Made by a program: the position numbers and the translations under genes. Below the pieces are notes generated by a model. That model was not told where the DNA came from and made no database searches. It saw only the letters and a list, made by a program, of their open reading frames with translations. Shown here piece by piece: positions 7,107 to 12,456 of a DNA stretch of 64,000 bases (position 1 is its first letter; each line of letters begins with the position of its first letter). Source of the DNA: Thermococcus sp. (lineage in GTDB: Archaea > Methanobacteriota_B > Thermococci > Thermococcales > Thermococcaceae); the NCBI RefSeq assembly GCF_027063845.1, contig NZ_JAMOQU010000072.1, forward strand, positions 57,071 through 121,070. Reading direction: 5' to 3'.

Positions 7107-8075
7107 CTAATTCGCCCGGTACTCGTAAACGGTTTCACCGTCGGTTATCGCGTAGACGTCAGTATCGCCGTCGCGGTAGTGTACTATAGGCCTGTCAACG
7201 AGCTCGAAGACCCTCTCAAGGTCCTTCGGGGAGGAAAGCTCAACGCGCCTCCCATCGGGGGACGTTCCCTCAACCGTGTACTTCTTCAGACTCTTCAACT
7301 CCTTGGGCTCGCGTTCCTTCTTTTCGCGCTTGGCGTAGATGAACCCCACCGGGGGAATCGCGAAAAGCAGTGCCATGGCCGGGAAAACGGTTCTGGCCGT
7401 TGAGACTCCGACGTCTGAGCCGGCAAAGGAAAGCGAGTTCGTGGTTGTGCTGACCGTTCTCACGACCTTCTGGTACTCCTTGTCCGTCCCGCTGAAGTAC
7501 AGCATCCCCGATGCGTCGCGCTTCAGCCGGATTTCCTGGGTGAAGGACTCCCTCCCGTTGGCCAGAACTTTCACGGTGACGTAAACTTCCCTCTCGGCAC
7601 GGTAGAGGCCCGTTCCTTCGCGAACCATCTGGAGTCTCTCGTTCAGCTCAGTAAAGTTCAGCTCAACTGGAACCTCGAAGGAATTCACGAAGGTACCCCT
7701 GGCGAGGAGCTCCGTGTCGTTGACGATGTAGACCCTCTTCTTGCCCGAGGTGACGTAGTAGTTGACGTGAAGAACGGCTTCGTAGCTTCCCCTAGCACCG
7801 TCCGATGAGAACTCGTATGTCCCAACTATCATGTCGGTTATCTTTGAGGGATAGTATTCAAGGGAAGTCCCGTTACCGTAAACGGTTTCGTTCGAGAACA
7901 GCCCATAGGCCGTAAAGTGTCCCTCCTGCGCGTAGGCTTTTGAGTAGGTTGCCTTCGTTGTTACGGGTTCCCTCGAGTAGGCAACGCCCGAGTAGAGGGC
8001 AAAGATGAAGGCGAGGGAAACCGAGAGGGCAAGACCTCCGAGGAGCGCCCGCTTTTTATCAATCTTCATAATCAA
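7107..8075 (-). CDS. DUF5305-like membrane protein of the fibre operon
   Basis: 322 aa; N-terminal TM, beta-rich ectodomain, C-terminal TM; linked to signal peptidase and DUF1102 genes. Confidence 0.6.
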   Translation of the reverse strand: MIMKIDKKRALLGGLALSVSLAFIFALYSGVAYSREPVTTKATYSKAYAQEGHFTAYGLFSNETVYGNGTSLEYYPSKITDMIVGTYEFSSDGARGSYEAVLHVNYYVTSGKKRVYIVNDTELLARGTFVNSFEVPVELNFTELNERLQMVREGTGLYRAEREVYVTVKVLANGRESFTQEIRLKRDASGMLYFSGTDKEYQKVVRTVSTTTNSLSFAGSDVGVSTARTVFPAMALLFAIPPVGFIYAKREKKEREPKELKSLKKYTVEGTSPDGRRVELSSPKDLERVFELVDRPIVHYRDGDTDVYAITDGETVYEYRAN

Positions 8076-8950
8076 CGACCTCCAGTTACGTGAACCGTGA
8101 TTTTATTCGAGACGACGTCGGTGCCGCACAGATGAGCCCCGCAGTTGAGGACGTAATCGCGCGGACAGTAAAAGATAACGCTCATTGGGATGTTCAGGGT
8201 TACCGTTTCTCCGTGAGCTACGTGGACGTGCCACACTATGAGCCAGCCCCAGCATCCACAGTGACCAACCCGGAAATGCATGTCTGCATCGCCGGAGCTC
8301 GCCTCTGGGTGGTGCACTATGTAAAACGCACTCCTCGGATATGGGATGAAGTCCTTTATGACGAAGTCGCCCTCCGGACCGTTGTTGGTAAAGTTGAGTT
8401 GCAGGGTTATTGAATACCAATTCCAAACAGTGTAGTTGTAAACGTCCCCAACTATGGCCTTCCTGAGCACGTAGGTTGGCTTCTCAACCTTAGCATACAT
8501 CGAGCAGTCCTTGAGCTCGGCGCTTCCGCCGTCCCACTCCGCATAAACGGTCAGGGGAACCTCGTAGGTGCCGTCATCAACGTCGTCATCCGCTGAGAAG
8601 CTCCCACCGATTGTAACCGACTCGCCCGGCTCAAGGGTGTAAGTTGAACCGTTAACGCTCCCGCTGAGGCCATCCGGAAGGGAGGAGTAGTTCCCCTCCA
8701 CGTGGAACGTTATCGGTCGGTCCATCAGGTTTTCAACTGTTATGGCCGTGAACTCCACGCCCGAGCTTGCGTTAACCGGAACCGGCTCCGACAGACAGCG
8801 GTACGCTATGTAGGAATCGCTTCCACCCACAACCTCAAACTCGGCACTCCTACTTGCCGTGTAAGCCCGAAAATTCCCGCTCGAACCCACTATCAGGAGC
8901 AGCCCGAGGAGGAAAGTCGTGATAAGTATGAATTTTCTCATGCTAACCAT
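8072..8950 (-). CDS. Secreted DUF1102/TasA-like surface protein (minor subunit?)
   Basis: Signal peptide followed by GNFRAYTASRSAEFEVVGGSD, like the two DUF1102 paralogues upstream. Confidence 0.6.
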   Translation of the reverse strand: MVSMRKFILITTFLLGLLLIVGSSGNFRAYTASRSAEFEVVGGSDSYIAYRCLSEPVPVNASSGVEFTAITVENLMDRPITFHVEGNYSSLPDGLSGSVNGSTYTLEPGESVTIGGSFSADDDVDDGTYEVPLTVYAEWDGGSAELKDCSMYAKVEKPTYVLRKAIVGDVYNYTVWNWYSITLQLNFTNNGPEGDFVIKDFIPYPRSAFYIVHHPEASSGDADMHFRVGHCGCWGWLIVWHVHVAHGETVTLNIPMSVIFYCPRDYVLNCGAHLCGTDVVSNKITVHVTGGR

Positions 8951-10001
8951 CTCCGAGTACCTTGGAGAGGATACTTCCCCTCCGTTTCCTGATTCTAAGA
9001 ACGTCCCCCTCCGAAATCCCCGCGAGATGGTAGAAGGCCAAGAGCACTGCCGAGATTAGCAGGGCGTAGGCTACGAACGGGAGATACGGGCTGAAGGAGT
9101 ACAGGAAAATCACGAGTGAAGCGGGAAGGATTGCCGGATAAGACCTGACCTGGAACTCCTCCCTGTAAATCTTTGTGTCCTCTGGAACGGTGACGTGGAC
9201 GGGAACTTCAACGCTTGAACCCCCACCAATGCGGAAAAACGTCGGCCCCAACAGCTGAGCCCGTTCTCCGTCGCCGCTGATGAAGTAGTAAAACGGGTAC
9301 AGGGCCTTGTTCTCGACGCTCAGGTTCTTATCGAAGGTTGAACCTGGCAGGTACCAGCCATCCCTCTGGCCGCCGGCGAGCGTTGAGGAGTAGCTGAAGG
9401 CTAGAGTTCCCCACGAGGCAACCGTCACGAAGAGAAAGCCTGCCACTATCATGACCGATGCAACCGCATATAGGGTTCTAATGCTCACGCGGTAGTACTT
9501 AACTCGCTTCTTCCTTTTGGAGTCCCCCGAAAACGTAAGGAACGCCCCGACGATAAGGAGGACCACTATCGCGTAGACGTTGCTGAGCCTTGCCCTCAGG
9601 GACTGGATTAAGTTCCCCCCTCCCCTCAGGACAAGGGGTTTGCCTAAGAGAACGACCACCTTTCCTGCCACGTCAGAGTTGTTTACGGGCGGATAAAGGC
9701 CGTCCTGCTGGTCGGTGGCAACGTTGTTGTCTCCCTTAGTTATGAATCCCTCATCGGTAACCGCGAAGACTCTGTGAACCGTCCAGCCGTCGCGCCTGTG
9801 GAAAACTATGATATCGCCAACCTCGAAGTTCTTCGCAAGGGGATTCATCAAGAAGAGGTCGCCCCTGTTTATGGTGGGCGTCATGCTATCGGAGTAAACG
9901 TACGAGAGAAACACGGGGCGGTCCAAGAAAAAGCCCGCTAACGAGCCAAGGAGAAAGGCAATCACAATGAAAGCAAAGGTGAACTCAAGTATTTTTTTCA
10001 T
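8943..10001 (-). CDS. SipW-like signal peptidase I with C-terminal extension
   Basis: SDSMTPTINRGDLFLMNP, VGDIIVFHRRDGWTVHRV, ITKGDNN motifs; 352 aa. Confidence 0.88.
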   Translation of the reverse strand: MKKILEFTFAFIVIAFLLGSLAGFFLDRPVFLSYVYSDSMTPTINRGDLFLMNPLAKNFEVGDIIVFHRRDGWTVHRVFAVTDEGFITKGDNNVATDQQDGLYPPVNNSDVAGKVVVLLGKPLVLRGGGNLIQSLRARLSNVYAIVVLLIVGAFLTFSGDSKRKKRVKYYRVSIRTLYAVASVMIVAGFLFVTVASWGTLAFSYSSTLAGGQRDGWYLPGSTFDKNLSVENKALYPFYYFISGDGERAQLLGPTFFRIGGGSSVEVPVHVTVPEDTKIYREEFQVRSYPAILPASLVIFLYSFSPYLPFVAYALLISAVLLAFYHLAGISEGDVLRIRKRRGSILSKVLGDG

Positions 10002-10047
10002 AGCAACTCCCCCTCAAAGGGGTTGGGGCAAAGGCCCCGAAAAGAAA

Positions 10048-10584
10048 TCACTGCTCGCAAGCTCCAGCAACCGCTTCAATGCTCATCTGGAATTGATACT
10101 CACCAATTGTTGAGTTCGTGTTGTCGAATATCATTCCAACCGGAATTGGGTTTCCATGCTCGACGGTGAACTGAATGTTGCTTGATGGTCCGGCTATGGG
10201 GCTGTCGTAGGTTCCCGCGAAGATTAAGACGTCATCGTGCTCGGTCTTGATGGTGACGCATATCGGGTAGCTGGTCTCGTTGTTCTCCCAGAGCTCGTTG
10301 CTGACCTCAAACATCTCCTCAAAGACGTAGGTCGTGTTCGGGCTCATACCGTTTCCACCGCCCGTCGGGTGGTTCGGGTTGTACTGGCTGATATCAACGT
10401 ACATCTTTCCAGCGTCGTAGGTCACATAGGGCTGAAGGGCGGTCAAATCAATCAGCTCGTTGTCGTCCGAGACGACATCGAAGCTCGCCTGCCTATCGGC
10501 AGAGTAATATCTGAAGTTTGCCCCGGCTCCAACCGCCAGGAGCATTCCAACCATCAGTAAAGCCAATCCAAACAGTTTATTCAT
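10048..10584 (-). CDS. DUF1102 family secreted protein (fibre subunit paralogue 2)
   Basis: 178 aa; GAGANFRYYSADRQASFDVVSDDNELIDLTALQPY, parallel to upstream paralogue. Confidence 0.75.
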   Translation of the reverse strand: MNKLFGLALLMVGMLLAVGAGANFRYYSADRQASFDVVSDDNELIDLTALQPYVTYDAGKMYVDISQYNPNHPTGGGNGMSPNTTYVFEEMFEVSNELWENNETSYPICVTIKTEHDDVLIFAGTYDSPIAGPSSNIQFTVEHGNPIPVGMIFDNTNSTIGEYQFQMSIEAVAGACEQ

Positions 10585-10598
10585 CTTTCATACCCCCT

Positions 10599-11198
10599 TC
10601 ATGACCCCTGACCGCATTTGCCGACTAGCTCGCTGGGCTCGGTGCCAAGCCTGTATGCCTGGATGTGTATGGTGCTGCTCTCGCTGTCTCCGGGGAGCGA
10701 GTTCCCAACGGTGAAGTCCATACCAACCTTAACGGCCTCTCCCGGACCAAGGACAAAGCAGACGTCGTTCTTGGCCATGTCGCTGGCGTAGACTATCTGT
10801 CCGGTATCAACATAGTGAACGTCGTGGTCTGCTCCATAGAACTGTATCGCGGTGTTGGCGTTGGTAATCCTGACGACTATGCTCATGTTGTCCTCCCAAA
10901 GGTCGTTGCTTACCTCAAAGACCTCGTCGAAGTTGTACTCCGAGTTCGGGCTGAGGCCCTTGCCATAACCGGGGTAGTTCGGGTTGTCCGGGCTTATATC
11001 AACGACAAGAACGCCACCGTCGTTTATGTACGCGTAGGGCTGAATGGGCGTCAGGTCAATGAGTTCAGTATCATCGCTGACGATGTCCCAGTGGACACTC
11101 CTGTCAGCGTTGTAGTCCCTGAAGTTGGCTCCAGCCCCTAACACGAGACCAAAGGCCACCAACAGGCCAAAAATTCCTAAGGCAAGATTCTTTCTCAT
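10599..11198 (-). CDS. DUF1102 family secreted protein (fibre subunit paralogue 1)
   Basis: MRKNLALGIFGLLVAFGLVLGAGANFRDYNADRSVHWDIVSDDTELIDLTPIQPY; start chosen by GGAGG 8 nt upstream. Confidence 0.78.
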   Translation of the reverse strand: MRKNLALGIFGLLVAFGLVLGAGANFRDYNADRSVHWDIVSDDTELIDLTPIQPYAYINDGGVLVVDISPDNPNYPGYGKGLSPNSEYNFDEVFEVSNDLWEDNMSIVVRITNANTAIQFYGADHDVHYVDTGQIVYASDMAKNDVCFVLGPGEAVKVGMDFTVGNSLPGDSESSTIHIQAYRLGTEPSELVGKCGQGS

Positions 11199-11206
11199 TT
11201 TTTTTC

Positions 11207-11338
11207 GCCTCCAGATTGGAGGCACTGTGGCAGAGAAGTCAGCGGTGAGAGTGAAGGTTCATCCCTAAACCAAGACACACTCACAACCACTGCAACGGTG
11301 AAATCAACGCAGTGCCTCAGCAACCCCCTCGGGTTGCT
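11207..11338 (-). promoter_or_regulatory. Structured 5' leader of the DUF1102 operon with competing helices
   Basis: SD hairpin 11207-11213/11217-11223; competing helix 11219-11227/11310-11318; hairpin 11319-11326/11331-11338; TATA-like TATATA at 11363-11368. Confidence 0.65.
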
Positions 11339-11420
11339 CACTAATTCCTTGGCCTGTTGGGGTATATATGAAATGTCGGATTAACGGCCGGTAATGGGAG
11401 ATTACCCAAGAAAAGAAGGC

Positions 11421-11861
11421 CTAAATGCGCTTCATTTTCCTGTGGTGAATAACCCCAACACCGGCGTAAACCAGTGATGCGATGGCAAGGTGAAGGTTGT
11501 TCAGGTAGAGGGCAGTTAGGAAGAACAGCAGGGAGAGCCCTATGTAAAAGGTGCTCCAGCTTATGTCGTTCTTCTTGACGGTCTCCATGTAAACGGTAAC
11601 ATCGTCAGGCACCTTCACGAGGGTTACAATGCCGTGCTTAAAGGTTATAACCCCCTCACGCTCGAGCTTCGGAATATGCGTCTGGACCAAGCTCACGTAG
11701 ACGCTCTTTCTGTGCTTCCGGTCAGTGTTTCCCTCGTTCTTGGCTATGTACTCAACCATATCCCTCAGCTCGGCCCTCCCGTCGGACTTCTGGAGGTACT
11801 CAATCATGAGCATCCTCCTGCTGTTTCCGAGTATGACCGAGGAGGTCCCCATGGCAATCAC
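11421..11861 (-). CDS. HTH-domain transcriptional regulator with two C-terminal TM helices (DUF7344-like)
   Basis: 146 aa; N-terminal winged-helix-like region, C-terminal hydrophobic hairpin. Confidence 0.6.
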   Translation of the reverse strand: MIAMGTSSVILGNSRRMLMIEYLQKSDGRAELRDMVEYIAKNEGNTDRKHRKSVYVSLVQTHIPKLEREGVITFKHGIVTLVKVPDDVTVYMETVKKNDISWSTFYIGLSLLFFLTALYLNNLHLAIASLVYAGVGVIHHRKMKRI

Positions 11862-12064
11862 CGTGCCAACCTGTAGTGTTTTCTACCGTTGTTGCCCACC
11901 CTCGTCTCGACGAGACCGGCCTTGGCCAACCGTCTGAGGGCCCGCTCGACCCCCTGCCTCGTGACGTCAAAGCCCCTTTCCATAAGAAAACGGGTGATGA
12001 ACGCAACGGTCAGCTCCCTCTCGCGGAGCATCTCAACCATTTCACTCTCAAAATCCCCCCTCAT
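11858..12064 (-). CDS. Small winged-helix DNA-binding protein
   Basis: MRGDFESEMVEMLRERELTVAFITRFLMERGFDVTRQGVERALRRLAKAGLVETRVGNNGRKHYRLAR. Confidence 0.65.
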   Translation of the reverse strand: MRGDFESEMVEMLRERELTVAFITRFLMERGFDVTRQGVERALRRLAKAGLVETRVGNNGRKHYRLAR

Positions 12065-12456
12065 GACTACGACCTCCCGACCGGAGTAAGACCCGGCCTT
12101 GGAAAAATAGGGGAAGGTAGTATTTAAACCTGCCTCAAAAGTTCGAGAAAGGAAGTTAGAGAAGAAGGGAAAGTGAATCAAGCAGAATTCGGGTAAAAAC
12201 GCTCAACAAAAGGACATATTCAAAAACAAAGGCAGAAATAGTCGGAACAGCAAACGGAATTCCACGGATTTTCCAAAATAAACGGGCAGAACTGTGCATC
12301 CAGCTCATCTTTGAAGGCGAATTCACGGGAAAGACCAGGAAAAATCGCGACGTGTTAGGATAAACATCAACGGCAAAAATACGTTTTGAAGTATAACACG
12401 AGGTTCGAGAAGGGAATTTAAGAGAGGGGGTTCGGGGTTCTGGAGCCCTTAAACGA

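Follow-up and report, generated by a model that had tools for sequence, protein, structure and literature searches.

The locus considered here raises the question of whether the 5′ leader of a DUF1102 gene of Thermococcus controls translation by enclosing its Shine-Dalgarno (SD) sequence in one fold and releasing it in another. The gene lies on the minus strand of the window, which is the whole 64,000-nt stretch of DNA that was analysed. The mRNAs of T. kodakarensis have a median 5′ UTR of 16 nt, with 50–300 nt in approximately 20% of them, and the 2014 transcriptome paper on this species stated that neither attenuators nor riboswitches of archaea had direct support in vivo (PMC4247193). Archaeal cis-acting RNA switches are scarce; since the leader is compact, covaries and has genetically tractable relatives among Thermococcus, the question can be put to the test with standard reporter constructs. 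No mention of DUF1102 was found in the literature searched.

Re-reading of the minus strand confirmed to the base every coordinate that a preliminary description had assigned to the DUF1102 leader, and these are collected with the neighbouring features in Table 1. We infer a transcription start near 11340 from the TATA distance and from the covariation of the 5′-terminal hairpin P0, which suggests that P0 is transcribed. The leader would thus be ~140 nt long in the window and precede the ATG of DUF1102 gene 1 at 11198 (−). Its GCCUC strand (11223–11219) can pair either with GAGGC at 11318–11314, which is the lower half of the long-range helix P1, or with GGAGGC to form the SD hairpin. Since both helices use this strand, they exclude each other, and the mutual exclusion proposed in that description is therefore borne out. 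Across the window, GGAGG is followed by T in 9/21 cases and by C in 4/21, and a C at this position lengthens the SD hairpin.

Table 1. Positions of the leader elements, promoter elements and first gene of the DUF1102 locus in the window.
Feature	Position	Strand	Basis
Promoter palindrome GGTAAT-CTCCC-ATTACC, candidate operator	11390..11406	-	only exact match in genome
TATA box TATATA	11363..11368	-	sequence; nearly every orthologous promoter has CTATATA or ATATATA
Predicted transcription start region	11338..11342	-	TATA distance
P0, 5′-terminal hairpin AGCAACCC-GAGG-GGGTTGCT (3′ arm also listed as GGGUUGCU)	11319..11338	-	sequence; core stem in 34/34 class A leaders
P1 5′ arm GAGGCACUG (anti-anti-SD; DNA GAGGCACTG)	11310..11318	-	96.7% of cells paired; three pairs changed on both sides
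P2 arm inside P1, GUGAGUG...CACUCUCAC, sequence variable	11245..11284	-	window MFE; resembling GAGUG:CACUC pairing in several relatives (by eye)
P1 3′ arm CAGUGCCUC (DNA CAGTGCCTC), overlaps anti-SD arm	11219..11227	-	UGCCUC invariant in 34/34
SD hairpin GCCUCCA-AUC-UGGAGGC	11207..11223	-	99% of cells paired, 34 genomes; loop length and sequence vary
Shine-Dalgarno GGAGG	11208..11212	-	sequence; ATG 9 nt further on
DUF1102 gene 1 (199-aa product, probably a bundling-pilus subunit)	10599..11198	-	PF06510 E=9e-56; Foldseek top match 7ueg

Taken singly, the pairings were only moderately unusual when compared with dinucleotide shuffles of the window alone. Of 5000 shuffles, 85 contained a 9-nt stretch complementary to the anti-SD arm, 21 a 7-nt complement of the SD within 33 nt, and 86 an 8-bp hairpin, which corresponds to ~0.4–1.7%. 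The folding z-score of the leader was −3.4, with the SD hairpin formed in the fold. Such single-sequence odds are unusual and not decisive by themselves; judged from the alignment of orthologues, it is conservation that settles the reality of the helices.

DUF1102 (PF06510) was detected in 87/94 Thermococcales genomes, and leaders were extracted for 77 orthologues. The layout of the window is found in 34 of these 77, all belonging to the genus Thermococcus as does the window, and they were defined as class A and aligned (alignment A1). Their order is P0, a GGGGCACUG-like 5′ arm, a variable interior, CCACAGUGCCUCC, a short variable loop, GGAGGCGAAAAA and the start codon, which is often UUG; many class A orthologues begin with UUG after an invariant GGAGGCG. 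P0, P1 and the SD hairpin were all retained in 34/34 class A genomes, for which reason we accept the helices as real. The three P1 pairs that changed on both sides account for nine cells in total, and the clearest compensation is GGCAUC:GAUGCC in two genomes (G074 and G008), where C-G is replaced by U-A and U-A by C-G. Overall, the P1 exchanges are C-G to U-A or U-G and U-A to C-G or U-G, and they are located above the strand common with the SD hairpin, so that they are evidence for P1 itself. The P1 covariation score was 0.207 against at most 0.042 with one side slid, and 0/500 shuffled-letter controls, which leave phylogeny in, reached this value. On the gene tree, the two variable P1 pairs changed 4 and 8 times; clear compensation is confined to two P1 pairs and occurs partly among related species. 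The SD hairpin persists in 34/34 leaders despite the variation of its loop, and changes are confined to one of its six pairs, as expected where one side is set by the SD. Like this hairpin, the GGC:GCC pairs are almost constant, and neither therefore carries covariation. The P0 core stem shows A-U/G-U/G-C exchanges at two pairs. Compensatory changes in orthologous leaders, whose absence had been named as a refutation in the preliminary description, are therefore present in P1 among the 34 leaders, and together with the conservation they support the SD/anti-SD/anti-anti-SD arrangement that it proposed, as one under selection. Chance pairing in a GC-rich leader, to which the odds of only ~1–2% for P0 and P1 in the single sequence lend something, is extremely unlikely in view of the conservation and compensatory changes across 34 genomes, and that conservation refutes it for the three conserved pairings P0, P1 and SD hairpin. 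On comparative sequence evidence, the three helices are very probably real and conserved.

A covariance model built from A1 was run on the 94 Thermococcales genomes (E ≤ 0.1) and matched 34 of them, with one convincing copy each, always 5′ of the first DUF1102 gene. One additional match in G094 was weak (E 0.055, 19.5 bits) and is probably due to chance; the model did not find the class A arrangement in other Thermococcaceae among these genomes. The other 43 leaders are shorter, at 64–97 nt from the TATA box versus a class A median of 163, and most Thermococcaceae outside class A have only such a shorter leader, with a 5′ hairpin. In Pyrococcus-like and related genera, a single hairpin with very different arm sequences stands at the predicted 5′ end and the SD is mostly unpaired, this hairpin being the sole structure of the leader in Pyrococcus-like genomes. 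One genus shuts the SD in another, small hairpin, and the 5′ hairpins are weak in one divergent Thermococcus group. Archaeoglobales also carry DUF1102 genes (L123–L132, L140; ~55–70% identity); a homologous leader is absent there, and their leaders are AT-rich and weakly structured. As the 5′ hairpin is widespread and the SD/P1 pair is found only in class A, the hairpin appears to be older and more general, with the SD/P1 pair as an elaboration in one Thermococcus group.

The gene that follows this leader probably encodes a bundling-pilus subunit. An AlphaFold2 model was constructed from 19 relatives (mean pLDDT 79), and its best solved structure in Foldseek was 7ueg of Pyrobaculum calidifontis (E = 1.2e-5, probability 1.00, TM 0.32–0.35, 15% identity), followed by FimA pilins. 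The 7ueg record reads bundling pili, and we take this entry to be the bundling pilin AbpA. Downstream, another DUF1102 gene lies at 7107–10584 (−) in a cluster with genes for a SipW-like signal peptidase, an unassigned protein and a DUF5305 protein, an arrangement that resembles a TasA-type fibre operon. The AbpA and FimA structure matches, though of low TM for AbpA, together with the second DUF1102 and signal-peptidase-like genes make the earlier assignment as a fibre subunit a reasonable one. On the promoter side, the strict palindrome GGTAAT-N5-ATTACC occurs in 49/77 orthologous promoters and weaker forms occur in most others, at a median of 20 bp from the TATA box; lying 5′ of this box, it looks like a dedicated operator. 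Directly upstream, 11421–11861 (−) encodes a DUF7344 winged-helix protein with C-terminal hydrophobic segments, a homologue of which is present at 72/77 loci; this protein may be a membrane-bound regulator that binds the palindrome. A second small winged-helix gene (MarR/GntR-like, 11858–12181 (−)) overlaps the start of the DUF7344 gene.

The balance between the two folds was evaluated by enforcing each state in the 34 leaders and subtracting the energy of the SD hairpin state from that of P1, where nearest-neighbour energies far above 37 °C are extrapolated. The median difference was +2.8 kcal/mol at 37 °C; at 85 °C (extrapolated) it was +1.0, within a range of −1.7 to +3.5. For the window leader the two values were +8.1 and +2.0 (the latter extrapolated). 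The computed energies thus place the two folds near balance at the temperature of growth. When the RNA was cut before the SD, the leaders with a P1 probability above 0.5 numbered 32/34 at each of 37, 60 and 75 °C, and 20/34 at 85 °C, which follows largely from the complementarity itself. With the full-length leader they numbered just 3–6/34, and the closed SD was preferred. These energetics agree with a leader whose SD is exposed at first and closed later; they agree also with a heat-biased balance and are proof of neither. An anti-P1 hairpin (CACUGC:GCAGUG), seen in the window MFE and in close relatives, was no better than shuffles over 34 species (median z −0.36) and is therefore not claimed. 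Its role would have been to hold the 5′ arm of P1 while the SD is closed, and its failure counts against the explanation that we consider best.

From the observed sequence, conservation, covariation and single genomic context, and from the computed balance of folds and P1 formation in truncated transcripts, we infer how events proceed in the cell, how translation is affected and what P0 does, as follows. In one state P1 (GAGGCACUG:CAGUGCCUC) would be formed and the SD free; in the other the GCCUC strand would pass to the SD hairpin and the SD would be closed. Since P1 should be complete before the SD is transcribed, the nascent leader would offer an open SD to a coupled ribosome, and a leader not promptly engaged would settle into the closed form. 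The balance between the states could shift with heat or with a bound factor. P0 would cap the 5′ end and probably protect the mRNA. We assign a probability of about one half to this reading, in which the leader is a bistable cis-acting translational-control element set by co-transcriptional folding, including its heat- or factor-modulated versions. That the conserved helices act as a switch on translation, all forms being taken together, is likely. The leader might further represent a new class of ribosome-site switch in archaea that works without a ligand, its co-transcriptional folding being tuned to hyperthermophilic temperatures, with the SD open during transcription and closing itself afterwards; we put this forward tentatively, with the odds against it. 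If true, such a self-closing SD would time the translation of a surface-fibre mRNA.

The open or the closed form might also be stabilised by a protein or small RNA acting in trans on P0, P1 or the interior arm, which would set fibre synthesis. This would agree with the conservation of the P0 core GC(A/G)(A/G)CC and of the segment UUCCACAGUGCCUCC, and an archaeal precedent exists in L7Ae, which binds its own leader and occludes the ribosome site (PMC6298567). However, no k-turn is conserved in A1, including one overlapping the SD, and most close relatives have CUGG in place of the CUGA seen in the window, as judged by eye; in addition, Rfam 15 gave no match to the leader at the gathering threshold or at E values up to 10, and we regard a bound switch as rather unlikely. 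C/D, H/ACA and k-turn RNAs were rejected as identities of the leader, with no Rfam match and motifs that are not conserved in A1. An RNA thermometer, whose SD hairpin would melt close to the top of the growth range with P1 aiding the transition to an open SD, would suit the calculation for 33 leaders, in which the SD is half open at a median of ~95 °C (extrapolated energies); the computed open fraction of the window SD rises from 0.08 at 85 °C to 0.48 at 100 °C. The opening is gradual, however, with the midpoint spread from 37 to 105 °C between species, and the plain version needs no P1, yet P1 is conserved, which leaves the thermometer improbable.

The leader could alternatively serve to stabilise an abundant structural mRNA, its 5′ hairpin guarding against 5′–3′ decay and the internal pairings being secondary. 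The hairpin at the predicted 5′ end of most other Thermococcaceae, with its dissimilar arms, and its solitary occurrence in Pyrococcus-like genomes speak for this, but the weak hairpins of the divergent Thermococcus group do not, and the anti-SD GCCUCC with its competitor in 34/34 class A leaders is left unexplained; we give this reading a small probability. The preliminary description had named a riboswitch beside a thermoswitch or a protein-bound leader. A metabolite riboswitch with its aptamer between the P1 arms would share the layout of an enclosed domain joined to an SD expression platform, and there is a helical arm within P1. The interior is nevertheless very variable in sequence and length (leader ~110 to 180 nt from the TATA box), P0, P1 and the SD with its anti-SD hold almost all invariant columns, and no Rfam riboswitch matched. 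The metabolite riboswitch was not upheld, because almost no unpaired core is conserved in A1, and we consider it very unlikely. A leader-peptide attenuator was rejected, as frames, starts and peptides differ among species; the window ORF is open for 48 codons and ends at AUGA.

For the bistable translational-control reading, several known systems provide a comparison. In bacterial riboswitch expression platforms, anti-SD and anti-anti-SD helices share the anti-SD strand, and the DUF1102 leader likewise has two exclusive helices on one such strand; it differs in its archaeal host and has neither a conserved aptamer core nor a ligand. ROSE, FourU and similar RNA thermometers close the SD in a hairpin, as does this leader, which unlike them has a competing long-range helix and no match to Rfam families. 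Surface-protein mRNAs of the ompA type are stabilised by a hairpin at the extreme 5′ end, a feature shared by the DUF1102 leader, which would add an SD switch. The L7Ae-regulated l7ae leader is also an archaeal 5′ leader whose fold governs access to the ribosome site (PMC6298567). It requires an L7Ae-bound k-turn and is unstructured without L7Ae, whereas the DUF1102 leader has no conserved k-turn and is computed to be stably folded. The sscA (sRk33) leader of the aEF1-alpha gene is likewise a conserved structured 5′ UTR in Thermococcales (PMC4247193, PMC3124441), but it belongs to another gene and location, and the DUF1102 leader matched none of the Rfam models. According to the text of the P. 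abyssi report, the leader RNAs sRk28, sRk33/sscA, sRk61 and sRkB sit at other genes (PMC3124441). Set beside these systems, the DUF1102 leader looks like a previously undescribed translation switch, of which very few are known in archaea, and if real, it would tie RNA folding at 80–90 °C to the control of a surface fibre.
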